A stretch of 44,454 nucleotides of DNA from an uncultured Pirellula sp. Lineage in GTDB: Bacteria > Planctomycetota > Planctomycetia > Pirellulales > Pirellulaceae. The notes beneath the pieces are model-generated. The model was not told where the DNA came from and made no database searches. It saw only the letters and a program-made list of their open reading frames with translations. The DNA is taken from positions 1 through 44,454 of the forward strand of contig CAIYZV010000392.1 in assembly GCA_903930765.1 (NCBI GenBank), written 5' to 3'. Positions 1 to 43,090 of this stretch are shown here, piece after piece. The first letter of the stretch is position 1, and every line of letters starts with the position of its first letter. A program made the position numbers and the translations under genes.

Positions 1-1365
1 CAAAAACTCTTCGTACACGCTCATGTCGTAAAGCACCGCCGGGGGTACTGGGATTTGGTATTGATCCCGATTCCAGTTGCCAAAGGCATCCATGATCTCC
101 ACCGTCTGGATCACGGTGGCTCCCGCATCCCTTTCGAGGGTTACTGTTTCGGACCCACCGGCCGGAATGCGCAGTTTGCGTGGCTGCCCCGGATTGCGTC
201 TGTCCGCCAGTAGGATAAGCAACGTATCGGTATGCGTGTTCGCAATTCGAAGTGAAACAGGAGGCAACGACGGATTCGGTACGATTTGATCAGAACTGAC
301 GCGGTACTGTGGCACCGGAAGCGAGAACGTTGGCTGTTGAGGCCACCAGATCTGCCACGGGCTCCAAGTGATCGGTTGAAGCCATAGCCCATTGCGAGGA
401 TCGCAGGTCAGCCCATAACCGGGCATCCACACACTCTCAAAGCAATACCCACCGCCGTTGAAATTCTGAATCCTCCACAATTGATTCACCGAGCTACCGA
501 GCGACGAGAACCGAATCGAGGCTCGGCCGTTCATGCCGCCCACCATACCTCCAGCCGAGAGTGCTCGATCATCCACACCGATCGCATACCAGTTCCCTCC
601 GATGTATTGCTGCACACGAACCATGTCTTGGCCGACAGGAGTGATGTACCAAGCGGTATCGAGTTGATCCGCTTGTTGCACCAAGGAAACTTGCCCAGGT
701 CGACTCGCTTTCAAAAAGAGTCGCTGTCCAGAATCGCCCGCGGCGAGCTGCACGGCGACCATACCATCGGGATCGAGCCCACCAGCAGCTGGGCCACCGT
801 TGATTGGGCCACCATTGATTGGGCCTAAGCTCGATGCCGGTGACGGCGGGTTGTAGCCACCCCCATTCCACGCCCCAGAATTTGCGCCATTAAAATTTGT
901 GCCATTAAGATTTGCACCAGTGGGATTAGGACGCGTCACTGTCATTCGGCTCGGAGCGAACTCGATCTGGCCATTTCGCAGTGTCCCGATGCGCATATTC
1001 CCTGAGTTCGCAGTTGGCCACTGGATCACTCGCTGGGCGGCTCGCGAACCATACCCGATGTAGGAGCCGTCAGGCGTATCGTAACGTTGCAATCGTTGGT
1101 AGGTCGTGGTCTGTCCTGCTGCGTCGCGGATCGATAACTCCTGCGGAGTGAGGCTGGCCATGGAGCTCGATCCACCCGCACCGGGCAAACTCAGCACAAA
1201 GACGTCTTGGCCATACGCAGCTCCACCAACCATGACGTGTCCACTGAATGCATTCCATGCCAATTCCGCGCATGGCACGATTGCAATCCCTACCGCGATC
1301 GCGACAGCAAAGAGCGACGATACGGTAGTTCGCCAGATTTGCAACAACGGTTTTCGACGGTTCAT
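1..1365 (-). CDS. Exported protein of unknown function, 3' end outside the window
   Basis: The reading frame is open from the ATG at 1365 to the window edge (455 codons), so the C-terminus is missing. The N-terminus (MNRRKPLLQIWRTTVSSLFA, then a long hydrophobic stretch to about residue 35) looks like a signal peptide or membrane anchor. A low-complexity linker follows at about residues 135-175. It holds a five-residue repeat (ANLNG, TNFNG, ANSG; DNA at about 880-925) and a GPINGGPINGGP repeat. Beyond it is a Trp/Gly-rich region with NQLWRIQNF and WLQPITWSPWQIWWPQQ, faintly like carbohydrate-binding beta-trefoil proteins; that resemblance is weak. The start codon overlaps the holA stop as ATGA, so it is probably translated by coupling. 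I do not recognise the family. A cell-surface or periplasmic role is inferred only from the signal sequence. Confidence 0.8.
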   Translation of the reverse strand, partial: MNRRKPLLQIWRTTVSSLFAVAIAVGIAIVPCAELAWNAFSGHVMVGGAAYGQDVFVLSLPGAGGSSSMASLTPQELSIRDAAGQTTTYQRLQRYDTPDGSYIGYGSRAAQRVIQWPTANSGNMRIGTLRNGQIEFAPSRMTVTRPNPTGANLNGTNFNGANSGAWNGGGYNPPSPASSLGPINGGPINGGPAAGGLDPDGMVAVQLAAGDSGQRLFLKASRPGQVSLVQQADQLDTAWYITPVGQDMVRVQQYIGGNWYAIGVDDRALSAGGMVGGMNGRASIRFSSLGSSVNQLWRIQNFNGGGYCFESVWMPGYGLTCDPRNGLWLQPITWSPWQIWWPQQPTFSLPVPQYRVSSDQIVPNPSLPPVSLRIANTHTDTLLILLADRRNPGQPRKLRIPAGGSETVTLERDAGATVIQTVEIMDAFGNWNRDQYQIPVPPAVLYDMSVYEEFL

Positions 1366-3060: not shown

Positions 3061-3741
3061 ATGCATCCAACAGCCCATCGCCCCAGCGACCAAATGACAC
3101 CTCATGGGAACGCAGAAACGTGGCTAGGGGCGTTGCGATGGCGATACGCCGTCAAACGTTTCGATGCTGCTCGAACGATTCCCACGGAAACTTGGAAAGC
3201 GATCGAAACGAGTTTGCTGCTGACTCCGAGCAGTTTTGGGTTGCAGCCATGGAAGTTCATCGTGGTGGAGTCGGAGAGTGTGAAGTCCCAGCTGCCGGCG
3301 ATCTCGTGGGGCCAGACACAACCTAAAGACTGTTCGCATTTCGTGGTGTTCGCCAGTTTGCGATCGGTCGATGCAACGTATGTCGATCGGTTCTTGCAAG
3401 ACGTAGCGACGACCCGATCGATCCGTCATGAAAGCCTTGCTGGATACCGCAAGGTCGTTCTCGGTTTCATCGAAGCGACCCAAGGCCATCACGACGTGTG
3501 GTCGGCCCATCAAGCCTACATTGCGTTGGGACAATTGATGGCGACCGCGGCCCACCTGGGAGTGGATACGTGTCCGATGGAAGGAATTGAGCCCGCCAAA
3601 TACGATGCAGTCCTGGGACTCAGCGACACGCCGTACGCAACACGTGTCGCGTGCGCTCTTGGCTACCGCCATCCCGACGATGGCTACGCGAACAACCACA
3701 AAGTCCGCTTCAACTCCGACGAATTGATCGTGCGTGTTTGA
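3061..3741 (+). CDS. NAD(P)H-dependent nitroreductase family oxidoreductase
   Basis: This 226-residue flavoprotein belongs to the FMN-dependent nitroreductase family (NfsB/YdjA-like). Typical segments are LRWRYAVKRFDA near residue 20 (the first FMN-phosphate contact region), SSFGLQPWKFIVV near residue 55, and the glycine/alanine-rich helix with QAYIALGQLMATAAHLGVDT followed by CPMEGIEP. It ends with a YRHPDD motif, as in NAD(P)H:nitroreductases. The reaction is probably two-electron reduction of nitroaromatics or quinones in the cytoplasm; the natural substrate is unknown. I chose ATG 3061 because GAGGAAAAC stands just before it. The frame is open upstream to 2983, but that extension is basic, unconserved-looking and lacks a ribosome site. 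It stands alone, convergent with the nSTAND gene. Confidence 0.88.
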   Translation: MHPTAHRPSDQMTPHGNAETWLGALRWRYAVKRFDAARTIPTETWKAIETSLLLTPSSFGLQPWKFIVVESESVKSQLPAISWGQTQPKDCSHFVVFASLRSVDATYVDRFLQDVATTRSIRHESLAGYRKVVLGFIEATQGHHDVWSAHQAYIALGQLMATAAHLGVDTCPMEGIEPAKYDAVLGLSDTPYATRVACALGYRHPDDGYANNHKVRFNSDELIVRV

Positions 3742-3817
3742 TTTCGTTCCGAAAACACATCGCCCGTAAACTGTTCGTCACCTTTCCAAGTCGATAGCGC
3801 GAAAAGATAGCCGCAAA

Positions 3818-20013: not shown

Positions 20014-22791
20014 TCACGACTTCGATAGCATTTTCACTTTGCTGGAAGGTGGCAACGTAGCCCGGATCCTTTCCACAAGGAAAGAGAGGCTATGATCGAA
20101 CGTCAACGCACGCCGTTGAAGGTGATTTGCCAATCGCCGTCCTGGAGCGGCAACGAACTGGGACTGGTCTGATTTCGCACTTTCATCGGCCCCCTTCGCA
20201 TGCGATTGTGTGGTGTCGCCGCTGGAACTCCCGTAGGTACCCCACGTGTTTCCACGTGCTCGACCCCACGATGATCGGTTGCTTTCCGCCATCCACACGG
20301 GACGCGTTTGTTTCGTTCTCGAGGCATATTCCGCGTGCCCCTGTAAGAGCGGGTCCTCAGGAATCTTCTTGTTGATTTCAACAATCTCAAGGTAATCAAC
20401 GTGATCGATCTGATCGGCGATCGATTTTCCTGTATTTGCCACGGCATGAGCTGCAACCTTTCCGAAAACCCATAATTGCTCCATCAATAACCCTCGGTTG
20501 TCGTCAGTAGGATCGGCCTTGTATTGCTCGCAACGCTTCTTTACCGATTTGGCAGCGAGGGAGACGCTCTTCTTCGTTTCGTGCTGACAATCGTGGATAT
20601 GGATTAGAAGCTGGTAGGGAAGCACAAACGGGAGTTCATTTTGTTCGATCACCTTGATGCTTTCTTCACAAAGTTCAGCCGCCACTTGCAACTTGTTTTC
20701 CCGATACGCGCAGATTGCCAACAAAGTAGAGATCCGCGGGTCACGATTCTCGCGTCGATCCAGCGTGTTCAGACTCGGTTTCTCCCGACCATGATCCCCA
20801 AAGTCATATTCCAAATAGTCGATGAGATTTTGGGAGATCGTTGACAGGCGCTCCGATCGCTCATAATCCTGCGGAGATACCCCCACAAAATCAAAAGGTA
20901 CATCGGTACGAAAGGGGCGTAGTTGGATGGGTTCAGGCGTCTCAACACGGGTTGGTGCTGACGTCACAACATCCGGGAGTACGATCGAGATCGTATAGGG
21001 TCCTTCGCCTGCAGGCACGCGAAAATTCCTCTTCAAAACCTGATTACGGTCGTATTCGATGTTCGCGGTGTAATGCCCTGGCTCCAAGTGCCAGGAGTTC
21101 CCTTTGCCAGCTATCGATTGTTTCGATTCGACCATGACGCGACCGGCTCTAACACCATCTACCTCGATGGAAACGATCCGCCCTGGTTTGGTATCCGAGA
21201 CAACCTTTCCTTCATCATTAGCCAGTTTTTCAACCGTACGATCGCTCACAGGAGACTTGGCAGCCAAATCCTGAACCGACTCAAGTGGAAACCTCGGAGC
21301 CCGAACTACATCGAACGACTCTGCTTCGTCGACTTTCTCCTGCACCAACTGTACAGGTTTTTCCCGGTTCTTTTCTGGGGTGATCACGAATGAGACAAAA
21401 CAGACCGCGAGCGATGCTGCGGAACCCAGAACAATCCATTTGCGTTGAGGATTCGCGTCGAGCCAATCCATGGTTGCTTGTTTAATCGACTGCCAGCCAG
21501 TCAACGACGAATCGTCAAATTGGGCATCATGCAATGCAGGGGGCGCACCCATTTGCTCTGCGCTGAGGTCGGCCCAATTCGGTGATTCACTGTTGGATGT
21601 ATCGAACTGACCGTTGCCCAAAGGTCTCGCGGCGAGATTGAGTTCTTCCAAGAGTTGCAATGCTGCGGTCGCATCGACCGGCCGCTTTCCAGCTTGTTTG
21701 TTCGTCAATGCCTCAACGAAACGGATAATATCCTCCGGCATTCCATGCATCCACTCCGCAGTCGTTGGAAGAGATTCCATCGCTGCTGCATGCCACCGGT
21801 ACCACTGCTCTTGTTCGCTTCGATGCTCATCACTTGCTGGATCGATAAACTCCATCACTCGGTTTCGAGTAATGAGCTCCAGGATGAGGAAACCCAGCAC
21901 ATAGAGATCCGACGCGGGACTGACCGGTCCAAAAATATCCGGGCGTAGCATCTCTGGAGCAATGTGAGTGATGTCGCTCGATGGAACTGCCGCAATCGAG
22001 CTCTCCCGCAGCCCCGGGGTGATGCTGAGCTTGACATTGCCATGATCGTCGAGCAGCAAGTGCCCCAGACTCAAACGACCGTGCACCCATCCTCGCGAAT
22101 GCAACACTTGCAATCCTCTCAAGCATTGCCGCAGGATTTCCCGAATTTCGTGCGGCGTGTAATCTCGATCGTGCTCTGCCCACTGCCGGCGACTGACCTC
22201 ACCCATGTGACTTGGTAACCACTCCATGACCACCCGGAAGGACTGCTCGTCGTAGTCCAATACCTTAACCAGGTGTGTCGCGTTACTTGCTGCATAAAAA
22301 CCGCATTCTTCGCGAAACTGCTTGACTTGATCCTCGGTTCGAACCAGGGAAGGGTGCAATTCCTTGATGAGCACTTTTCGATTCAGGCGTTGATCGATGG
22401 CCACCCAAAGTTTGGCGCGTCGCCCCGACGTGAGCAACGATTCTGTGAGATAACGGGCTGCAAATGCCTCGGCCGGTTTTACCGCCACGACCTTGCTCTT
22501 CTTTTGCGCTCGAAACAACTCCTTATCGTATTTTCGGCGAGCACTTTCATCGGCCAACGTTTTATAGGCTGCCTCGATCAACAGAAGCCCTCGCTGGCAC
22601 TCCTCGGCTGTGATCAGATTGTCGACGCGCGCTTGCTCGAATGCCACGCATTTAAGGCTCCAAGCAGCATGGATAGCGTCGAGTTCCACTTGGTTGGTGT
22701 TGAACCCAAGTCGCTTGTAATGGTTGTAGCTCTCGATGAGTTCCAAGAAATTGGTTGGGATTTCCATGGTTTGGGTGTCCGAGGTCGTCAT
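20014..22791 (-). CDS. J-domain-like pseudokinase, membrane-anchored, heading the Tad operon
   Basis: A 925-residue protein. Residues 24-93 resemble a J domain (YNHYKRLGF, then AAYKTLADESARRKYDKEL), but the HPD motif needed to stimulate DnaK is absent. Residues 112-385 have a protein-kinase fold: Lys143 (VLIKEL) and APE 278-280 are kept. The glycine loop is absent, the HRDLKPxN motif is HGRLSLGH (237-244, no catalytic Asp, Lys or Asn), and DFG is SIT (256-258). Catalysis is therefore unlikely. One membrane segment lies at 452-470. The remaining 450 residues, probably extracytoplasmic, include a PEGA-like beta domain (GRIVSIEVDGVRAGRVMVES) and a helical region. ATG 22791 follows AGGTG; an ATG eight codons earlier is also possible. 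It is likely an assembly scaffold or signal receiver for the pilus. Confidence 0.87.
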   Translation of the reverse strand: MTTSDTQTMEIPTNFLELIESYNHYKRLGFNTNQVELDAIHAAWSLKCVAFEQARVDNLITAEECQRGLLLIEAAYKTLADESARRKYDKELFRAQKKSKVVAVKPAEAFAARYLTESLLTSGRRAKLWVAIDQRLNRKVLIKELHPSLVRTEDQVKQFREECGFYAASNATHLVKVLDYDEQSFRVVMEWLPSHMGEVSRRQWAEHDRDYTPHEIREILRQCLRGLQVLHSRGWVHGRLSLGHLLLDDHGNVKLSITPGLRESSIAAVPSSDITHIAPEMLRPDIFGPVSPASDLYVLGFLILELITRNRVMEFIDPASDEHRSEQEQWYRWHAAAMESLPTTAEWMHGMPEDIIRFVEALTNKQAGKRPVDATAALQLLEELNLAARPLGNGQFDTSNSESPNWADLSAEQMGAPPALHDAQFDDSSLTGWQSIKQATMDWLDANPQRKWIVLGSAASLAVCFVSFVITPEKNREKPVQLVQEKVDEAESFDVVRAPRFPLESVQDLAAKSPVSDRTVEKLANDEGKVVSDTKPGRIVSIEVDGVRAGRVMVESKQSIAGKGNSWHLEPGHYTANIEYDRNQVLKRNFRVPAGEGPYTISIVLPDVVTSAPTRVETPEPIQLRPFRTDVPFDFVGVSPQDYERSERLSTISQNLIDYLEYDFGDHGREKPSLNTLDRRENRDPRISTLLAICAYRENKLQVAAELCEESIKVIEQNELPFVLPYQLLIHIHDCQHETKKSVSLAAKSVKKRCEQYKADPTDDNRGLLMEQLWVFGKVAAHAVANTGKSIADQIDHVDYLEIVEINKKIPEDPLLQGHAEYASRTKQTRPVWMAESNRSSWGRARGNTWGTYGSSSGDTTQSHAKGADESAKSDQSQFVAAPGRRLANHLQRRALTFDHSLSFLVERIRATLPPSSKVKMLSKS

Positions 22792-23099
22792 CTTTTTCAC
22801 CTGAAATCTGGACATATCAATTGGTTTACTGAACCTGACTTAGCGTAGATGCGGATTCATGCCCACGATCGGAAGTCGCGTTTTGATCCTGTCTCTAGAA
22901 TCAGGGCCACGATAGCCATTCTGGGGCTCGCCCGAATTTTTTCGGCTTCCCCAATCGCTTTTCGCTCGGCTCAGCCCAACCTAAAAATACCACTGCTGCA
23001 ACTTCCGCCAGGCCACTCGATTCCGCATTCCACACCGGAGGCCCCCCTCTTAAACGACCGCAAAAGCCCTTGTCCGCCATTTTCGGAGTTCCCCTGTCG
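22792..23099. promoter_or_regulatory. Divergent intergenic region between the two Tad arms
   Basis: About 300 bases separate the starts of the pseudokinase (minus) and second TadA-like (plus) genes. Promoters of both Tad transcription units must lie here, unless longer leaders are used. I see no convincing sigma-70 boxes, operator palindromes or ORF. Confidence 0.5.
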
Positions 23100-27951: not shown

Positions 27952-28542
27952 ATGATGACGAGTAACAGAACGCGACTTCAGAACCTGCGATGGTCGAAAT
28001 CAGGTTTGCTCCGCCCCCGTCGAACTCGACGGCAGCAATTGCCATACGGCAATGCCTCGTTGGAAATGGTCCTGATCATGCCGTTGACCCTAGTAGTCAT
28101 CATGATCTTTTTCTGGATGTCGCGAACGTTTTCGGCCAAGCACGGTTCGACGATCGAATCGAATCGCGATGTGCACGAGCGGGCGATGGTGGTGGAGTAC
28201 ACGGGGAATGACCGTCGCACCGAAGCCGTCCCTGGATTGCGCCAATCGGACCTCGAGTATTTCCTATCAAAGTGGCCTAGCCGCAAGAACCTGCGTAAGG
28301 GATTGGTGGAAGGCAAGGGCGAGGTCGATTCGGGAAAAGGTGTATTGTCGCACCAAGAGGGTGCGGGTAGCGCGGAGTCGACCGACTGGCTGCTCACCGA
28401 CACATGGCAGCATGCGTTCATCTTTCCGAAGAGTGCTGGGGAGCAACCGATGATGACCCTTCCGAAAACCATCCCATCGATTCTGCCGCGAGGCACGGGC
28501 GAAGTACACCCCAACACCTTCCGCCAATTGCTCAACTTCTAA
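27952..28542 (+). CDS. TadE-like pseudopilin
   Basis: A 196-residue protein with a long basic leader (about 33 residues) ending in YGNASLEMVLIMPLTLVVIM: Gly, then NASLE with Glu at +5, and a hydrophobic helix, the TadE pattern. The remaining 130 residues are soluble and not recognised. AGGATTCG precedes tandem ATGs at 27952 and 27955; either could be used. It is the last gene of the plus-strand Tad arm. The 137 bases between it and the TadG-like gene hold no gene that I can support. Confidence 0.7.
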   Translation: MMTSNRTRLQNLRWSKSGLLRPRRTRRQQLPYGNASLEMVLIMPLTLVVIMIFFWMSRTFSAKHGSTIESNRDVHERAMVVEYTGNDRRTEAVPGLRQSDLEYFLSKWPSRKNLRKGLVEGKGEVDSGKGVLSHQEGAGSAESTDWLLTDTWQHAFIFPKSAGEQPMMTLPKTIPSILPRGTGEVHPNTFRQLLNF

Positions 28543-28770
28543 CGAGCCTATCGAAGCGAGTACCCTGACAGCCGCGATGCATCAACTCCGTTGTGTTGTC
28601 CCTGTTATCCATTGTGGCACGACACTCTGCCGTCGTCCTCCAACACAGACAAGCGATTAGCGCACTATGGTGGCCTTGCGAAGCTCGTGGAGTTGAGAGA
28701 CCATCGGGAATTAACAAAACTCGAAATGGCATCAATACATCATTTCAAAATAACGATTCCAAAAACATCG
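28543..28770. other. Intergenic stretch, no gene seen
   Basis: Lies between the convergent ends of the Tad plus arm and the kinase-STAND-FGE gene. AT-richer than its surroundings. No ORF, terminator or RNA is supported. Confidence 0.4.
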
Positions 28771-28909
28771 CGAGCGGGGGCATAGCCCCCTGCACCCCAG
28801 ACTTTCAAAACCGCTACGCCTGCGGTCTACGGCACCTCCGGTCGCCGCTCCGCGCTCCCTCCGTGCCTGCGACCCCAGGCTCCGCTCTCCTGGACCTGCG
28901 CGGCTCCGC
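28771..28909 (-). repeat. GC-rich hairpin-bearing element downstream of the FGE domain
   Basis: About 140 bases with far higher GC than the adjoining 230 bases. It contains a perfect hairpin GGGGGC-ATA-GCCCCC (28776-28790), a smaller CCGC/GCGG hairpin (about 28811-28825), and short repeated CTCCGC words. It starts directly after the stop of the kinase-STAND-FGE gene. The look is that of a dispersed GC-rich element, or of the stem-loop tail found after diversity-generating-retroelement target genes. No second copy occurs in this window. Confidence 0.45.
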
Positions 28910-31900
28910 CTACTTGGGGATTCCGGATGGGGAACTCAGGGCAAGGCGCAAGCCGCTGCCGTGGCTGCGGAGGCCCGGCGTGAGCCAGTACCGGGGCACC
29001 GACCGACAATTCGCGGCCACGCCGCCCCAACTACCGCCACTGGACACGCGGGCCGAGCCCACTTCCAAATCCCAACACCACTCCTGGACGTTGCCATGCA
29101 TGTCGTGCAGTCCCCAGGCATTCGGAAGCTTCTTGCCACTCGGTGATGCCAGCTTCGATGGAATCATCTGACAATAAGCCGTTAGCAGCGCTTCATCGTT
29201 CCCGGGACTCCATTCCGTATCACTACCAGACCGACACGCATACTCCCATTCCAATCCCCTCGGCAACCGGTACCCATTCGCTCCCTCCACCTCTTCCCAC
29301 TTGTCCACTTCGATCTCGCGATCAGCGTAATCCTTGATCTTCTCTTTCCCAACGCAACGATACGCAGGTGTACGGCCTTCCCGTTGACTGAGCCAATTGC
29401 AGTACATCACCGCATCGTACCAACTCACGCTCTGGGCCGGATGGTCCATCGTCGGACTGGTCTCTTTGTAGGCGTAAAGCTCGGATTCCTTTCGATCTTG
29501 CGGCTTCTCGCCTGCGTAACTCTGATCGTTGATAAACGCCTCGAACTCCCCACGCGTGACCTCGCGATTTGCAAGCCAATACGGTTGTTCGGGTACATTG
29601 GAGCGCTCAGCCGCTAATTTCACGAACCGAGGATCAGCGTGCAGAACGAATAGGTCAGGATCGGAACGCATCTGATTACGGGATGAGTCATTCCCCTGAC
29701 TCCAACGCTCCAGAAGACCAACCGATCGGTCCATCCAACCGCGTTTTTCCTCGGCAGTCGACGACTCACTCGCAGCAAACAACGCTGCTGCGCACGCCAA
29801 ATTGTAAAGTACTCTGAAATCTGCGAACTCTGTACCCGCAAGCCCTTGTTCCAGTCTCGCGACGGCGGCTTCCTTGCGACCTAGCCAAAGGGGCACGAGG
29901 CTCTCGACATAGTCGCGATAAACGGCATCGGGTTCGGTCGCAGACCACTGAGCCAGTGCCGCGTCCGCTTCCTCCGTCCGCTTCAACCGAGCCAATGCAA
30001 ACAGACGAAGCTGATCGATTGCACCACGCACGCCTGCCATGGAATCGTCCAATTCCATTTTCGATACCGCCTCGAGGTCCGCCAACGCATCGTCATACTG
30101 CCCAACGAGGAATAGGGATCTGCCGTGCCAATAAAAAAAATTGGCCTGAGCCTTTTGTTCCGGTGTTGCGCTCTCTATCTGCGACAGGGTCTGACGCACT
30201 TGTTCCAGCGGATCCGGTAGCGGCTTTAGCTCGACCGCGGGTGGTGTGATCCGCACGAACGTTACTCCTTGCGAGTTCTGCATCCAGTTGCGGCCATCGA
30301 CCATCTGCTCGGCATCAGGGAGGGTCGGCTCGGGGAGTTCCCACTGCCGCATCAGCCATGAGGAAGCGCTGTGTGTCGAACTGTCCGGAAGCGAATACCA
30401 CGTGGTCGCGAGTTCGGCGATGCGAGTTTTCTCTCCCTCCGCAATGCGTTTCAAAGGAATCTGACCCAAACCTAAACATACCGCCGAACGCAACGCTGGA
30501 CTGGGCGAGTCCTTGACAGTCGTGACTAATGCAGCGCGATTGAGTTCCCAACGAGGGAACTCGTCGATGAACCAAGTTCTTATTCCATGATCGGTCCGTC
30601 CCTCGAATTCCACCGCATCGATGGGTAGTGCCGTATCTCCGATACTCAACGCTGCTAATGCGAGGCGCGCTTTGCGGCGATAGAGCTCCGGCGTTGTACA
30701 TGCACTGGCCGCTTGTCGTAGCTTCTCTATCGATCCGACCGGATCGTGCCCCAGCGCCTCGACCAAGTTTCCTATATCCCGATCCTCGATCGCATCGATT
30801 TGCGAGATCAGGTAATCGACTTCCACCTGACCGAAACTGGACAAAGCGTACGCCAAGGAGAGTTTCTCCTGAGGTTCACTCGCAGCCGAATACCGACTCG
30901 CTAATTCCGGACGAATCAGATCGGGTCGTTGCATCTCGAGCAGCTTTTCGATATTCACCGGAACCGCTGGACCAAGCGTTTTCTGGAGCGAATCGAGGGC
31001 AACGGTGATTTTCTCCTGCTGGCTGCGAAGGCTCTGCTGCTGGAACAGAAATCCGGTGATGCCTCCTAAGATCAGGACGCAAGCGATCGAACTGCCCCAA
31101 TTCTTCGCATGCACGCGAGCCGCCCTTCGCATCAGAGACTGTTCTGGCACAGTCCAGCGTTTCTTGTCGGTCCAGCGACGGATCGACCACCACTCCCAGA
31201 GGGTCGGGAGTTGCTTGTTCTCAGGGTTAGCACTCCATACCGCCGACCGTTCAGTCAGTTTTAATTCCGCACGACCTTTTTTCGTCTCGCGCTGCTTTTG
31301 CGTCAGCCAATCGCGCAGCGAAGGGACCATGTAATCGTGAGCGAGTTGATAGTAGAGCGATTGTCTCAATCGCTCGGGAGTGTCGACGGTTGGCTCAGCT
31401 TCGGAACGATTGGGGACAATCGTTCTACGGTTGGCGTCCGTATCGGAATCGCTCGGGGCAATGGCACTCCCCTCATCGACCGGTGTGATCAATCGCAGGT
31501 TCTTATCGAGGATGTCGATCAACTCCTGAAATTCGCGCGGTTTATTTTCGTAACCAGCGGCCTTCTGCAGCGAAGCCGCACTTTGCATCGAGCCCTTGAT
31601 GTCGGTTCCAGTCGATGGGAGCAAGGCCGACAGCAGGCCTCGCACTGCTTCCTGATGCTGGCGATGCTGGATCGGCGCATGCCGCGATCCGAACATCTCC
31701 TCCAGGAAGGTTACCCCAACCCCTTCGATACCACCCACCTCACGCAACGCTGCCGTCGTCCAGTCTCGCGATTTCATCATGTCGGCCAAGATCGCAATGC
31801 GGACCGAAATCACCTTGCGATCCTGCGAAAGACCGTTGATCGCTTGGCGAACGAACTCGTTCTGGTCTTGGATCCATGCCTTCGTACTATCCGGGAGTTT

Positions 31901-33610
31901 GCCATAGGCCTTGCCGAACAAGCCCAACACCTTAGACGCATGATCCAGGTCGAACAGATCGACCAACGCGCTGTTGTCGCGTTCGAGGATCGGGATATCC
32001 AACTCTCTTAAGAATCGGCTGACCGAGATCCAGAAGTCGTCTCGCACCATGACAATAGCTTGAATGGCACCTCCATCGCATTCCAGCAGAGCATCGGTCA
32101 GGGATGTTTTGGCATAATCCGGCTCTGCAAAGAGCCATTGCTCAAACTGATCCAGAACCAGCAGCAGTTTGCCACCCGAGGGAACCAGTTTGCGACGGCG
32201 AATGACACTGAGGATTTCCTTGAGCGATCCTCCCTCGGCATCTGGAATCGCTTTGCGTACGGCACGCAGCAAGCGGGTTTCCGTATCGTCGGGTGTTGCC
32301 TCGAGATAGATCGGGATAATCTTGGGACTCAAGCGCGGCAGAAGGCCTGCTTTCATGAGCGAGGATTTGCCGCAACCTGAAGGGCCGTAGACCAGCCCGA
32401 CCTTGAACGTTTTTTCTGGGTCTGTCTCTTCGATACGCGTCTTCCAAAATCGAAGCCCTTCCGGCAGCCCCTCGCGATCGAACGGGCCGGGAAGGAGTTC
32501 TAAGAAAAAGCTAGCGTCCGAAGCGTCGAAGGAGCGGAGACCTTTGGGAACAATTCGCGTGGGACCAGTTCGCTGCGAATCCGACCCGCGAGCCGCGAGT
32601 TCCGCTGTGTTTGGCGTTAAAGGACTGGCAGGAGTGACACCCACCGGAATGGGCATCGAGGAGGGGCGCACACCTGGGGTCGGGGCGTGGTTCGAGAGTA
32701 TCCATCGTATCTCTTCGGCAAAGTCTCTTGCGACGGTGAAACGGTCGCTCGCACGACGCGATAACGCCTTCATGCAGATACGCTCTAAGTCGACTGTAAG
32801 CGAATCATCAAAAAGCCTCGGGCTTCGAACCTCTTCATTGGCAACCAACCTCATCAAATCGAGCGGATTATCGGATCGGAATGGACGACGACCCGTCAGT
32901 AACTCATAGAGGACGACACCAAGGCTATAAATGTCGCTTCGATAACCAACGCGGTGCCCTTCGCCGCGGGCTTGTTCTGGGCTCATGTAGGCAGGGGTAC
33001 CCGCCGATTCACCTGACCTTCTCTGATCGCTCTCGCGCAGAGCAATACCAAAATCGGTGAGATAGGGGCGGTCTCGTCGATCTATGAGGATGTTGGCTGG
33101 TTTCACATCGCGATGCACTAGCCCCTTCGAATGCGCATGGTTGAGAGCATCCGCGATTTGTTCGACGATCCGAAGCGAGAGGATACGGTCAGGCCGATCC
33201 ACTTTGATTCGAGTAGCAAGATCCGCTCCATCAATTAGTTTGGAGACGACGAAAAAATCACCCTTCGCTGTTTGGCCTACATCGTAGACAGGAACAATGG
33301 CCGGGTGGTCGAGAGCCGCGACAATCTGGGCCTCGTTGAGGAAGCCTTGCTTCGTCGAGGAATCAAGCTTTGAACCGAGCGTTACTTTGATGGCAACATC
33401 GCGCTTGAGTTGGTCATCGATCGCACGGTAAACCTCACCGAATCCACCGCGGCCTAAGAGAGAGATCACTCGATAGCGACCAAACCGCCGGTCGCTCACA
33501 TCGAAATCGTTGGACCCCGTCACCGCGGTATCTTGAGACTCTCTCGGCTTCTGAGTGGTGTATTCAAAATCGCTGGTATGCCCAGGATCATTCGCGTCTG
33601 GAGTTGGCAT
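28910..33610 (-). CDS. Ser/Thr kinase fused to STAND ATPase, TM, TPR and FGE-sulfatase domain
   Basis: A 1566-residue multidomain protein. The kinase spans about 44-305 and looks active: GRGGFGEV 53-60, Lys75, HRDVKPAN 166-173, DFG 186-188, SPEQ 210-213. A STAND-like NTPase follows, with Walker A GPSGCGKSS 409-417 and Walker B LLLVLDQFE 482-490. A membrane segment lies near 825-845 (IACVLILGGITGFLF). TPR-like repeats come next, and the final 240 residues form a formylglycine-generating-enzyme (sulfatase-modifying) domain: LANREVTRGEFEAFI, VSWYDAVMYCNWLSQREGRT, YRLPRGLEWEYACR, LHDMHGNVQEWCWD. The FGE fold here is more likely a binding module than an enzyme. The C-terminal 35 codons resemble a retroelement-diversified region. 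The gene stands alone, divergent from the LEPR-like gene. Confidence 0.92.
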   Translation of the reverse strand: MPTPDANDPGHTSDFEYTTQKPRESQDTAVTGSNDFDVSDRRFGRYRVISLLGRGGFGEVYRAIDDQLKRDVAIKVTLGSKLDSSTKQGFLNEAQIVAALDHPAIVPVYDVGQTAKGDFFVVSKLIDGADLATRIKVDRPDRILSLRIVEQIADALNHAHSKGLVHRDVKPANILIDRRDRPYLTDFGIALRESDQRRSGESAGTPAYMSPEQARGEGHRVGYRSDIYSLGVVLYELLTGRRPFRSDNPLDLMRLVANEEVRSPRLFDDSLTVDLERICMKALSRRASDRFTVARDFAEEIRWILSNHAPTPGVRPSSMPIPVGVTPASPLTPNTAELAARGSDSQRTGPTRIVPKGLRSFDASDASFFLELLPGPFDREGLPEGLRFWKTRIEETDPEKTFKVGLVYGPSGCGKSSLMKAGLLPRLSPKIIPIYLEATPDDTETRLLRAVRKAIPDAEGGSLKEILSVIRRRKLVPSGGKLLLVLDQFEQWLFAEPDYAKTSLTDALLECDGGAIQAIVMVRDDFWISVSRFLRELDIPILERDNSALVDLFDLDHASKVLGLFGKAYGKLPDSTKAWIQDQNEFVRQAINGLSQDRKVISVRIAILADMMKSRDWTTAALREVGGIEGVGVTFLEEMFGSRHAPIQHRQHQEAVRGLLSALLPSTGTDIKGSMQSAASLQKAAGYENKPREFQELIDILDKNLRLITPVDEGSAIAPSDSDTDANRRTIVPNRSEAEPTVDTPERLRQSLYYQLAHDYMVPSLRDWLTQKQRETKKGRAELKLTERSAVWSANPENKQLPTLWEWWSIRRWTDKKRWTVPEQSLMRRAARVHAKNWGSSIACVLILGGITGFLFQQQSLRSQQEKITVALDSLQKTLGPAVPVNIEKLLEMQRPDLIRPELASRYSAASEPQEKLSLAYALSSFGQVEVDYLISQIDAIEDRDIGNLVEALGHDPVGSIEKLRQAASACTTPELYRRKARLALAALSIGDTALPIDAVEFEGRTDHGIRTWFIDEFPRWELNRAALVTTVKDSPSPALRSAVCLGLGQIPLKRIAEGEKTRIAELATTWYSLPDSSTHSASSWLMRQWELPEPTLPDAEQMVDGRNWMQNSQGVTFVRITPPAVELKPLPDPLEQVRQTLSQIESATPEQKAQANFFYWHGRSLFLVGQYDDALADLEAVSKMELDDSMAGVRGAIDQLRLFALARLKRTEEADAALAQWSATEPDAVYRDYVESLVPLWLGRKEAAVARLEQGLAGTEFADFRVLYNLACAAALFAASESSTAEEKRGWMDRSVGLLERWSQGNDSSRNQMRSDPDLFVLHADPRFVKLAAERSNVPEQPYWLANREVTRGEFEAFINDQSYAGEKPQDRKESELYAYKETSPTMDHPAQSVSWYDAVMYCNWLSQREGRTPAYRCVGKEKIKDYADREIEVDKWEEVEGANGYRLPRGLEWEYACRSGSDTEWSPGNDEALLTAYCQMIPSKLASPSGKKLPNAWGLHDMHGNVQEWCWDLEVGSARVSSGGSWGGVAANCRSVPRYWLTPGLRSHGSGLRLALSSPSGIPK
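28946..29041 (-). other. Putative DGR variable region in the FGE C-terminus
   Basis: The FGE tail reads GGSWGGVAANCRSVPRYWLT then PGLRSHGSGLRL. In known FGE-type DGR targets, the same frame GGSW...NCRS..R...TP..R....G.R is kept and Asn (AAC) codons of the template are diversified. Here the corresponding codons are CCC, TAC, CTC, GGC, CTC, AGC, CAC, GGC and AGC. All end in C, with the first two bases varied, as expected from adenine-specific mutagenesis of AAC. Adenine is about 9% in the 81 bases from 28946 to 29026. No reverse transcriptase or template repeat is visible in the window, so this is a candidate only. Confidence 0.45.
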
Positions 33611-33914
33611 CGGGAGGGCGAATATTCCGCTTCGGGTTGGTCGAACGGGCCTAACACAAAAGAATTTCTACCTGAACATCATAACCTCGCCCCTACGACA
33701 TCACCATCCAAGCAAGCCGCAGGTCGCAGCGATCCACGATTTCCCAGCAGAATCCAGTAGGGCCTGGGGGCCTGCGATGTCGCGTTCAATAAATTTTCAA
33801 TCTCACTTCCGGTTGGTCGGGAAATACCGCATCTCATTAACGTGGACGAACTCGCAACAGTTCCAACGAGAAACGACGTCCTAAAGCATCAAACCACCAT
33901 TGGGAGTACAGATC
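33611..33914. promoter_or_regulatory. Divergent promoter region
   Basis: Some 300 bases between the divergent kinase-STAND-FGE and LEPR-like genes. Both promoters presumably lie here. I see no clear hexamers, operators or ORF. Confidence 0.4.
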
Positions 33915-40810: not shown

Positions 40811-43090
40811 ATGACGTTGGACCAAACACTCAATCAGTCCGTTGGCGAACAAATACGAGCCGAGGAGCTGAGCCTGCGCTCGACGGTGCCTCCATCCCAG
40901 GTGCCCGGTTACCGCATGGAGAAGCTGCTCGGGCAAGGAGCGTTTGGACAAGTTTGGATCGCAACCAATCTGAACACGGGCCGTTCGGTAGCGATCAAAT
41001 TTTATCTTCACCGGTCTGGAGTGAATTGGTCCCTTCTGACTCGTGAAGTGAAGAACTTGGTCTCGATGTCGGGAAACCGAGCGATCGTTCAAGTCCTCGA
41101 GGTTGGCTGGGATGCGGAACCTCCGTACTACGTGATGGAACTGCTTGAGAACGGGTCCCTGGATGATCTGATTCGCAATCGAGGAGCACTGCCCGTACCG
41201 CGGGCCGTGGAATTATTTACCGACATTGCGATGGGCCTGAATCATTCGCATGGCAAAGGGGTACTGCATTGCGATCTCAAACCAGCGAACGTCCTTCTCG
41301 ATCAAGACATGCAGCCACGGCTGGCGGATTTTGGACAAAGCCGTCTGTCGCATGAGCAAACGCCGTCGCTTGGCACGCTGTTTTTTATGGCTCCTGAACA
41401 AGCCGACCTCAATGCGGTTCCGGATGCACGTTGGGATGTCTATGCGCTGGGCGCGATTCTCTATTGCATGCTAGTCGGGACCCCGCCTTACCGAACACCG
41501 GACACCGTCTCCACGTTGGATACCGCGGGAAGTTTGCCAGAGCGTCTCAAGCGTTATCGAGACACCATTTACAAGAGCCACTTTCCTCGGGCCCACTACC
41601 GGGTTCCTGGAATGGATCGTTGGTTGTCCGCGATCATCGACCGTTGCCTGGCCAAGAAACCTGAGGATCGTTTTGACAACGTCCAGCAAGTCATCGCTGC
41701 GATCGAACGGCGTCGCACCGCACGACTCCGAAGGCCATTGATGATCCTCGGGATCCTCGGCCCGATCCTATTGGTTACCATCATGGGATTGTTCTTTTGG
41801 CGGGCAGTGACGGTGGCAGAAAGCGATCTTTCGAATGAGCTTCGAGAAGGTGCACTGCAGAGCAATTTCTTCGCAGCTCAGTCCGCGGCAGGAACCTTAG
41901 AATCAGAGATCTCGGGACTTTTTCGATTGATCGAAGAAGAAGCCAGACGCCAGACACTGGAAGACCACTTCTCGGAAGCCGTTGACACCGCCGGGATCGA
42001 GCTCCTCCAAAGCTTGGCAACCGACGGCGATATCCCCGAGGAAAGCAAATCGCAGCTGCTCGCTATCCCGGCTCGAAATGAACTCGATGCGCACCTCAAA
42101 GCCCGATTGGAATTGATGCGATCGAGAGGGTTCGGAGCGACCAAGTCCACCAAATTCGACAGTTTGTTTATCACCGATCGATTTGGCACGATGCTCGCTG
42201 CCGCCTTTGCCGGAGACCAGTCCTCATCCCCTATCGGAGAGAACTTCGCCTACCGCAGTTACTTCACCGGCCAAACGCGCGATCTCAATGAAAGCACCCC
42301 ACGAAAAAATGTCCAGAGGACGAAGAGCTCCCACCTTAGCGTGCCGTTCAAATCCACAACAACAAATCGATGGAAAATCGCAGTCTCCACACCGATTTCC
42401 GTCCGCGAGAAAGTCGACGATAAAGAACGAATCACCGAAGGGGTCCTCGTATTGACCATCAACATTGGTGACTTTGAATTGCTCGCGAACAATCCCGCAC
42501 CCAAAGAGAAGAAGAACGACGAAGAAAACACTCCCGCCCCGAGTCAGTTCACAGGTTTTGCGGTCCTCGTCGACGGCCATGAGGGGAGTCGTGAAGGGAC
42601 TATCCTCCAGCATCCCTTTTTGTCACAAGCGGGCCGACCGATCGAAGGCCAAGCCGATTTGAAGTTTCAGATCGACGAACCTACGTTAAAACGTTTGAAA
42701 GAGACGGGGACCTACCGATACATCGATCCCATCTCGAAAGACAAGGATGGAAAAGCCTACGAAGGGGAATGGATCGCGGCGATGGAGAAAGTGGAAATCG
42801 CCCGCCGCGGATCGGACGAGTTCGAACGCCGTCAATCCACATCGTTGTTGCTACTCGTCCAAGTACCCGCCAATTCCATCACCGTACCCGTGGCGATGAT
42901 GGGTCAGAAACTGGCCAAGCTATTTCTATTCGCGGTGATTGCACTTCTCGCGGCCATCGTCGCGCTGTGGCTTTTCGTTTTCCGTTTCATGAGGCTCCCC
43001 GATAGTTTTGCAGAAGCCTCTCGCGCTCGCACGGGAACCACGGAAAACCGCCCCGGAACCTCCGACGAAGCCACCCTCGGGATCGAGTGA
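40811..43090 (+). CDS. Membrane Ser/Thr kinase with extracytoplasmic sensor domain
   Basis: A 759-residue protein. The kinase is at about 34-300: GQGAFGQV 41-48, Lys63, HCDLKPAN 153-160 (Cys in place of Arg of HRD), DFG 173-175, APEQ 194-197. Two membrane segments lie at 310-330 and about 701-723. The 370 residues between them should be extracytoplasmic. They begin with a long helix and contain a Cache-like sensor pattern: FITDRFGTMLAAAFAGDQ, then FAYRSYFTGQTRD, and a second half with YRYIDPISKDKDGK. Double-Cache domains bind small ligands in chemoreceptors and histidine kinases; here one would drive a Hanks-type kinase. The short C-terminal tail is cytoplasmic. No ribosome site precedes the ATG. 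Confidence 0.9.
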   Translation: MTLDQTLNQSVGEQIRAEELSLRSTVPPSQVPGYRMEKLLGQGAFGQVWIATNLNTGRSVAIKFYLHRSGVNWSLLTREVKNLVSMSGNRAIVQVLEVGWDAEPPYYVMELLENGSLDDLIRNRGALPVPRAVELFTDIAMGLNHSHGKGVLHCDLKPANVLLDQDMQPRLADFGQSRLSHEQTPSLGTLFFMAPEQADLNAVPDARWDVYALGAILYCMLVGTPPYRTPDTVSTLDTAGSLPERLKRYRDTIYKSHFPRAHYRVPGMDRWLSAIIDRCLAKKPEDRFDNVQQVIAAIERRRTARLRRPLMILGILGPILLVTIMGLFFWRAVTVAESDLSNELREGALQSNFFAAQSAAGTLESEISGLFRLIEEEARRQTLEDHFSEAVDTAGIELLQSLATDGDIPEESKSQLLAIPARNELDAHLKARLELMRSRGFGATKSTKFDSLFITDRFGTMLAAAFAGDQSSSPIGENFAYRSYFTGQTRDLNESTPRKNVQRTKSSHLSVPFKSTTTNRWKIAVSTPISVREKVDDKERITEGVLVLTINIGDFELLANNPAPKEKKNDEENTPAPSQFTGFAVLVDGHEGSREGTILQHPFLSQAGRPIEGQADLKFQIDEPTLKRLKETGTYRYIDPISKDKDGKAYEGEWIAAMEKVEIARRGSDEFERRQSTSLLLLVQVPANSITVPVAMMGQKLAKLFLFAVIALLAAIVALWLFVFRFMRLPDSFAEASRARTGTTENRPGTSDEATLGIE

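Follow-up and report, generated by a model that had tools for sequence, protein, structure and literature searches.

The DNA analyzed here, referred to below as the window (44,454 nucleotides), is the entire contig C392 of a 527-contig, 5.74-Mb metagenome-assembled genome (MAG) that is 96% complete. On its minus strand an open reading frame at 28910..33610 encodes a protein of 1566 aa that terminates in GGSWGGVAANCRSVPRYWLTPGLRSHGSGLRLALSSPSGIPK followed by the stop codon. Pfam identified an N-terminal protein kinase domain of the Ser/Thr type (aa 46-293, 32732..33475, minus strand; PF00069, E 6.8e-47), an nSTAND1 NTPase domain (aa 356-797, 31220..32545, minus strand; PF20703, E 1.3e-18) and, after a long middle region, a C-terminal FGE-sulfatase-like C-type-lectin domain (aa 1339-1557, 28940..29596, minus strand; PF03781, E 2.9e-30). 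The protein thus has the order effector, STAND NTPase, sensor, and the kinase-STAND-FGE architecture that the original prediction had read from the sequence is borne out. PknB kinases were the best-scoring solved chains for the kinase domain, and all of the PADLOC matches listed (25 of 34) start in the kinase part. The closest named full-length protein match was from an uncultured Pirellula sp. MAG, Loclat_bin-07289. Two more genes on this contig have protein-kinase matches (20014-22815, minus strand, and 40811-43090, plus strand).

The most hydrophobic 19-residue stretch found by a hydropathy script, aa 838-856 (31043..31099, minus strand), is a probable membrane span and has basic residues on its N-terminal side. 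In the receptor topology that we infer from the sequence, the kinase and the NTPase would lie on the inner side of the membrane and the FGE domain on the outer side.

A profile of 52 FGE domains ranked Treponema denticola variable protein 1 (PDB 2y3c) first, with an E value of 3.2e-63 (next match, 5.4e-34). The same structure came first in a fold search with an AlphaFold model (E 2.1e-14, TM 0.69, rmsd 8.1; next match, 2.2e-11); the pLDDT of the model was 81.8 overall and only about 59-67 over part of the variable region (VR) described below. We take the Treponema protein to be the variable protein of a diversity-generating retroelement (DGR), and to our knowledge it carries no kinase or STAND fusion. 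By sequence profile and by fold, then, the VR sits at the 3' end of a C-type-lectin-fold gene.

The variable region and its template repeat

The last ~43 codons of the receptor gene aligned without gaps to the 130-nt template repeat (TR) of a congener, genome G022 (L080:1729-1858), and this match sets the VR at 28931..29060 on the minus strand. The TR reads GSNRVNRGGSWNNEAANCRSANRNRNNPSNRNNNNGFRVALNS and the window VR, in the same alignment, reads GSARVSSGGSWGGVAANCRSVPRYWLTPGLRSHGSGLRLALSS. Compared to this TR, 24 of the 33 adenines were changed in the VR as against 9 of the 97 non-A bases (Fisher p = 7e-12); one of the 24 changes (AAT to AGT) is a TR/VR end difference common to many VRs, and the stricter count is 23 of 32. 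Codon changes confined to A include GAG to GTG and AGG to TGG. The third C, which had been described as fixed, was indeed kept in 12 of the 13 AAC codons of the TR; C occupies the third base in 28% of the codons of the gene and in 40% of its last 80. The differences at non-A bases include CGT to AGT and TCG to GGC, and these nine differences are explained either by a true TR that is not identical to that of G022 or by drift in the VR.

Other details of the original prediction were corrected by the alignment. It had listed nine codons as former AAC codons: eight do sit at AAC in the TR, while the fourth, GGC, sits at TCG, and five further AAC positions, now GCC, TCC, GGC, GGC and ACG, had been missed. 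The range proposed for the variable segment, 28910-29041, overlaps the VR, but the VR (29060..28931) starts upstream of it and 28930..28910 lies beyond the VR/TR homology. We place a putative IMH-like 3' end of the VR at about 28931..28950 (minus strand) from the VR/TR alignment. It contains a slight IMH/IMH* difference, as the window has CTGAGT where the TRs of G022 and G001 both have CTGAAT (AGT in place of AAT at 28936..28934).

It could be argued that ordinary divergence within the FGE family, with its structurally variable positions, would mimic a DGR VR, all the more since members of this domain family generally share the motif GGSW...CRSA.R...P..R....GFR. However, FGE genes of the same genome that have no VR history differed from the TR at 37-49% of non-A sites, as opposed to 9% in the window, and they kept the third C in 2-9 of 12-13 AAC codons as opposed to 12 of 13. 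These values come from five control rows (L037, L040, L042 twice and L047) out of 14 FGE loci of this genome; eight of the other loci gave no row because they fell below the filter or were duplicates, one is the window itself and one, L044, is on contig C70. On non-A identity to the TR we rejected ordinary FGE divergence, which is now a very improbable explanation. Among 47 VR-like rows from congeners, with the template rows and the window's duplicate set aside, the non-A difference was 0-22% in 41 and 25-34% in six.

The comparison with the closest full-length orthologue, from the sister genome G018, was made in blocks of 150 bases. Most blocks of the kinase and STAND parts were 93-100% identical; this range held over 33900..30451 except for the indel-rich block 31500..31351. 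Identity was 85-87% in 30450..30001, then 99, 93 and 89% in 30000..29551, 78-81% in 29550..29101 and 66% in 29100..28951, the VR block, and downstream of the VR it recovered to 89, 93 and 97%. Inside the VR the two orthologues differ at 24 of the 33 TR-A sites versus 23 of the 93 others. The original prediction would have been weakened by a lack of variation among close relatives; in this comparison, of species and not of strains, the relatives do vary. Change peaks at the VR, though the whole FGE domain is also less conserved; identity of 78-81% in that domain outside the VR implies that recombination or selection acts there too. In the indel-rich block (31351-31500, about aa 704-753, within the nSTAND1 match) 87 of the 150 bases are gapped relative to the sister, and the neighboring blocks are 95-96% identical.

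The DGR reading is supported by the TRs and DGR-type reverse transcriptases (RTs) of congeners, by mismatches that fall on template adenines and by interspecies differences that peak at the same place. These sequence comparisons confirm the original observation and bear out its reading of the receptor C-terminus as a DGR variable region.

Beyond the stop codon lies a GC-rich tail (28700..28909, minus strand) that is partly common to other genes of the genus: 28700-28960 matched 17 of 60 genomes (this one included; 16 in the genus) at up to eight places per genome. The description of this tail as hairpin-bearing holds only in part: there is a perfect 6-bp stem-loop at 28790..28776, about 120 nt past the stop, but the structure is weak (z = -2.2 for its stretch) and the stretch at the VR end, 28945..28850, folded no better than shuffles (z = +0.4). 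Within 28500-29300 a repeat finder reported no inverted repeats with a length of at least 12, and Rfam at gathering scores gave no match in the window. A BPP-1-like hairpin directly downstream of the VR was therefore rejected on the z score at the VR end. We did not treat a hairpin as a defining feature, since some BPP-1 homing remains without it (PMC3240598, PMC12875486).

Reverse transcriptases and templates in the genome and the genus

The original prediction had looked to the genome for an RT and a template repeat and had held that their absence from the complete genome would count against the reading. Neither is present in this incomplete, 527-contig MAG. An RVT_1 search and a profile of ten DGR-type RTs found no DGR-type RT in it, and below E 0.38 a TR query matched the VR of the window and no other place. 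The only two RTs of the MAG, on contig C272, were rejected as the DGR engine: both score above the TIGR04416 group II intron cut-off, and the one that was scanned with Pfam has a GIIM domain. A near-identical second copy of the VR within the genome was likewise rejected, the matches being one on C70 (74% over 122 bases) and two of ~40 bases. The C70 match (L044, C70:15897-16011) is an FGE gene with a degenerate VR that differs from the TR at 22 of 33 A and 21 of 96 non-A positions (22%); it shares part of the window's downstream tail and has no copy, within two mismatches, of the 14-base address proposed below. The sister genome G018 gave no DGR RT by profile and one short RVT_1 fragment on its contig C126. 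With no DGR RT and no TR in the assembly, the window VR would be a remote target whose engine has been lost, is unassembled or lies elsewhere.

The genus as a whole gave a different picture. We found eleven full-length DGR RTs in 9 of its 27 genomes (the window's genome counted), all with profile E values of 6.3e-142 or better; ten of them are members of the search profile and the RT of G016 is not, and all eleven had been found by the RVT_1 search before the profile was built. In the RVT_1 search of the 27 genomes, RTs of ~350 aa adjoin tails like that of the window, for example on contig C162 of G001 and contig C31 of G022. A motif scan of the fetched loci showed (L/I)PIG(S/N/A)xxSQ in the RTs of the genus, which we take to be the DGR form of this RT motif, and one of the RTs matched 160 phage records, including the annotated DGR of ANMV-1 virus. 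Comparing locus with locus gave A-biased TR/VR pairs within the genus, and the TR query matched 22 of the 27 genomes. Of 296 genomes sampled from the order, 15 matched the DGR RT profile at E 1e-90 or better, and two of these 15 are from the genus. By these searches the genus is rich in DGRs.

Several loci recovered in this survey differ from the others. Four (L081, L083, L084 and L091, from G010, G006, G007 and G021, respectively) carry a second DGR-type RT lineage with asparagine-rich template-like repeats just downstream, e.g. GGNWNNNSNN...NNNNPSNENNNIGFRVA, and locus comparisons found no cis VR in them. At the expected place of the TR in L085 (about 3650-3780; G008:C17:28147-28277) the 5' half is template-like and the 3' half VR-like, so that the sequence looks as if a template had been overwritten. 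In G001 a 181-aa open reading frame lies between the target and the RT (L079:6511-7056, minus strand), with a candidate HRDC-type end recognized by eye; HRDC-type domains are a DGR accessory type.

The absence of a DGR RT from both assemblies, that of the window and that of G018, is what one would expect if the DGR had been lost in an ancestor of the window species and its sister. The VR would then be a relic, frozen or drifting, which is compatible with a DGR origin. The state of the G018 VR fits such a loss: it has 19 non-A mismatches to the TR in 93 sites, one codon is missing and its longest run against the proposed address is only 7. On the other hand, the address in the window is intact (14 of 14 bases) and its VR has 9 non-A mismatches in 96. 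In addition, VRs with no more than 1-3 non-A mismatches occur in four genomes that lack an assembled RT of this TR class (G009, G024, G006 and G017; the DGR RT of G006 belongs to another lineage), and these near-clean VRs imply that missing RTs may be partly a matter of assembly. Another locus bears on the same question. L191, from MAG K_Offshore_surface_mx_130, encodes the first 189 aa of the receptor at 99% identity and then reaches its contig end; its collinearity with the window extends for about 6.5 kb, at 85-90% identity. We took its genome, G320, to be G007, and the TR of G007/G320 equals that of G022 over 126 nt, has the same antisense and is cut by a contig end. A close relative therefore possesses the matching template, and assemblies break at loci of this kind. 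Taken together, we regard ancestral loss as a serious possibility, with a chance somewhat below one half.

As to the VR itself, the sequence data make it very probable that it is a remote (trans) DGR target in the C-type-lectin tip of a kinase-STAND receptor. RNA from a TR encoded elsewhere would have been the template of an error-prone RT with misincorporation at adenines, and the mutated cDNA would have overwritten the end of the receptor gene in this lineage. The rewritten residues would belong to the C-type-lectin (FGE-like) domain, with the kinase and the STAND NTPase across the probable membrane, and binding of a ligand by the tip would be expected to switch the NTPase and the kinase. 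Action in trans, signaling and a role of the receptor in defence may be suggested on this basis. If so, the kinase-STAND protein would be an immune-type receptor whose recognition end is redrawn while its signaling body stays unchanged.

Antisense sequence beside the template repeat

A 14-base sequence adjoining the VR end, CCATCCGGAATCCC (28917..28930, minus strand), is the exact antisense of bases 40-53 beyond the end of the G022 TR. It was first seen in a BLAST alignment, it lies outside the VR/TR homology and none of 5000 shuffles gave a run as long. We refer to it as the proposed address. The TR flank of G007 also forms a 14-base run with it. In G001, where matching changes are present in both partners, the run is 15, and in other systems of the genus the best runs are 11, 12, 10 and 7. 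The orthologue in G018 has lost the address (longest run, 7). Among 62 aligned entries, templates included, 22 have an address of the window type when up to 2 mismatches in 13 are allowed; two of the 22 are the window itself. For one remote VR of G001 (on C17) the run is 14 with the antisense of G022 but 6 with that of its own TR.

To compare cognate with non-cognate partners we used 24 DGR systems. The sum of cognate complementarity was 190, which was reached by 0 of 20,000 permutations; as the systems are related to each other, these permutations are not independent trials. Cognate pairing beat every non-cognate pairing in nine of the 24 systems, namely eight of 18 planctomycete systems and BPP-1, and failed to do so in the other 15. 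For the 18 planctomycete systems the sum was 153 versus a shuffled mean of 105.6 (0 of 20,000), and for the 12 systems from other genera it was 83 versus 70.0 (8 of 20,000). No excess was seen in the five phage DGRs other than BPP-1 (cognate runs of 5, 5, 7, 6 and 5) or in L249, L251, L253, L254, L257, L259 and L261 (runs of 4-6), and L088 and L263 were weak, with runs of 7 each. Of 25 loci supplied for TR/VR pairing seven had no pair, and L264 (a 61-nt pair; run of 6, p 0.30) was left out of the permutation and flank tests. The set contains no VR belonging to the G022 system itself; the partners used for it were the window and, in the permutation test, a VR of G010 as well.

In the flank at +5..70, runs of 8 or more occurred in 9 of the 18 planctomycete systems, as against 0 or 1 of 18 in each of five control readings (the same strand, the TR 5' flank and three distant stretches). 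In L248 (G165:C373), from another genus, a 12-base complement of the VR end occurs in both the 3' and the 5' TR flank.

BPP-1 provides a case outside the planctomycetes. Bases 48-56 of its spacer match nine bases of IMH, but not IMH*, in antisense; 8 of 2000 shuffles gave runs as long. The TR end gives a run of 5, and the nine-base IMH run stops on adenine 56, which we take to be the cDNA priming site. The search stretch for this result was moved after the sequence had been seen, because the annotated VR extends past IMH; with the stretch used at first, a 9-nt run lay at another place and equaled the shuffle maximum. Four bases between the VR and the hairpin of BPP-1 can be changed without loss (PMC3240598), so an address located beyond the VR is not general.

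The cDNA of BPP-1 is primed from an adenine of the spacer, which yields a covalent RNA-cDNA hybrid, and homing is incompletely understood (PMC12875486). Because the TR 3' flank carries sequence antisense to the target at the VR end or immediately past it, homing may be addressed by base-pairing. With this antisense RNA making up its 5' portion, the RNA-cDNA hybrid would match the target to either side of the junction: the RNA ahead of the priming adenine and the cDNA would together read as one antisense target strand. In G022 the predicted priming site would be the adenines adjoining the antisense, 54-55 beyond the TR end. In general terms, we tentatively propose, at close to even chances but short of them, that DGR retrohoming is RNA-addressed, with template RNA beside the priming site antisense to the target at the VR end or immediately past it, and matching IMH rather than IMH*.

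Two other roles for the antisense sequence could be imagined. One is that it only self-primes the template RNA and that pairing with the target is a by-product of the likeness of TR and VR ends. Priming of cDNA synthesis by the spacer adenine of BPP-1 does take place in IMH* (PMC12875486). However, where the run at the VR end is 8-15 bases the run at the TR end is only 4-6. Moreover, the antisense in G013 and G008c129 agrees with the VR at the bases where VR and TR differ, and that of the window lies outside VR/TR homology altogether. We consider self-priming alone unlikely. The second is regulation of the target mRNA instead of homing. The stretch is complementary to the sense strand and hence also to the mRNA, although the clear cases sit at the VR end and no more than about 15-55 nt from the template, a location that fits homing better, and we regard mRNA regulation as improbable.

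RNA addressing, if true, would explain the IMH/IMH* difference and the one-way flow of sequence, and scattered remote receptor genes could share one engine through the same 14-nt address. It would also make the open question of target finding by the mutagenic cDNA accessible to a base-pairing test, and it would offer a way to find remote targets; the authors of a large survey state that their own method would miss remote DGR targets (PMC8144416). We found no statement of an RNA-borne address in the open-access literature searched, as far as its accessible text goes, although one may be in print.

Comparison with known systems

The DGR of the Bordetella phage BPP-1 resembles the system of the window lineage in its A-specific TR/VR change, its RT and its IMH (PMC3240598, PMC12875486). 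It differs in that it acts in cis, its target is a phage tail protein and a hairpin follows right after the VR; the window has no hairpin in that place. DGR-linked domains of the FGE type have been reported almost exclusively from cyanobacterial ternary systems, and planctomycetes have related ternary systems (PMC7159879).

There is a close likeness to the clade 5D DGR targets of Thiohalocapsa PB-PSB1, which are described with nSTAND1/NACHT and FGE-type CLec domains and, like the window receptor, combine nSTAND1 with a C-terminal FGE-type CLec domain that carries the VR (PMC10907252). Several related loci per genome are a further common feature, and some of the remote PB-PSB1 targets were inferred to be diversified in trans (PMC10907252). 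Both nSTAND1-FGE DGR targets and action in trans are therefore already known. The partners named for PB-PSB1 are EAD8, peptidase and TIR (PMC10907252); the window receptor, unlike these targets, has no EAD adaptor by Pfam, and its genome assembly has no RT or TR. The order kinase-STAND-FGE was not seen spelled out in the accessible text of the open-access DGR literature searched, but kinase-bearing targets may already be included in PMC10907252, as a figure legend there lists a protein kinase domain. Relative to the PB-PSB1 targets as described in that part of the paper, the window receptor is distinguished by its N-terminal Ser/Thr kinase and its probable membrane span.
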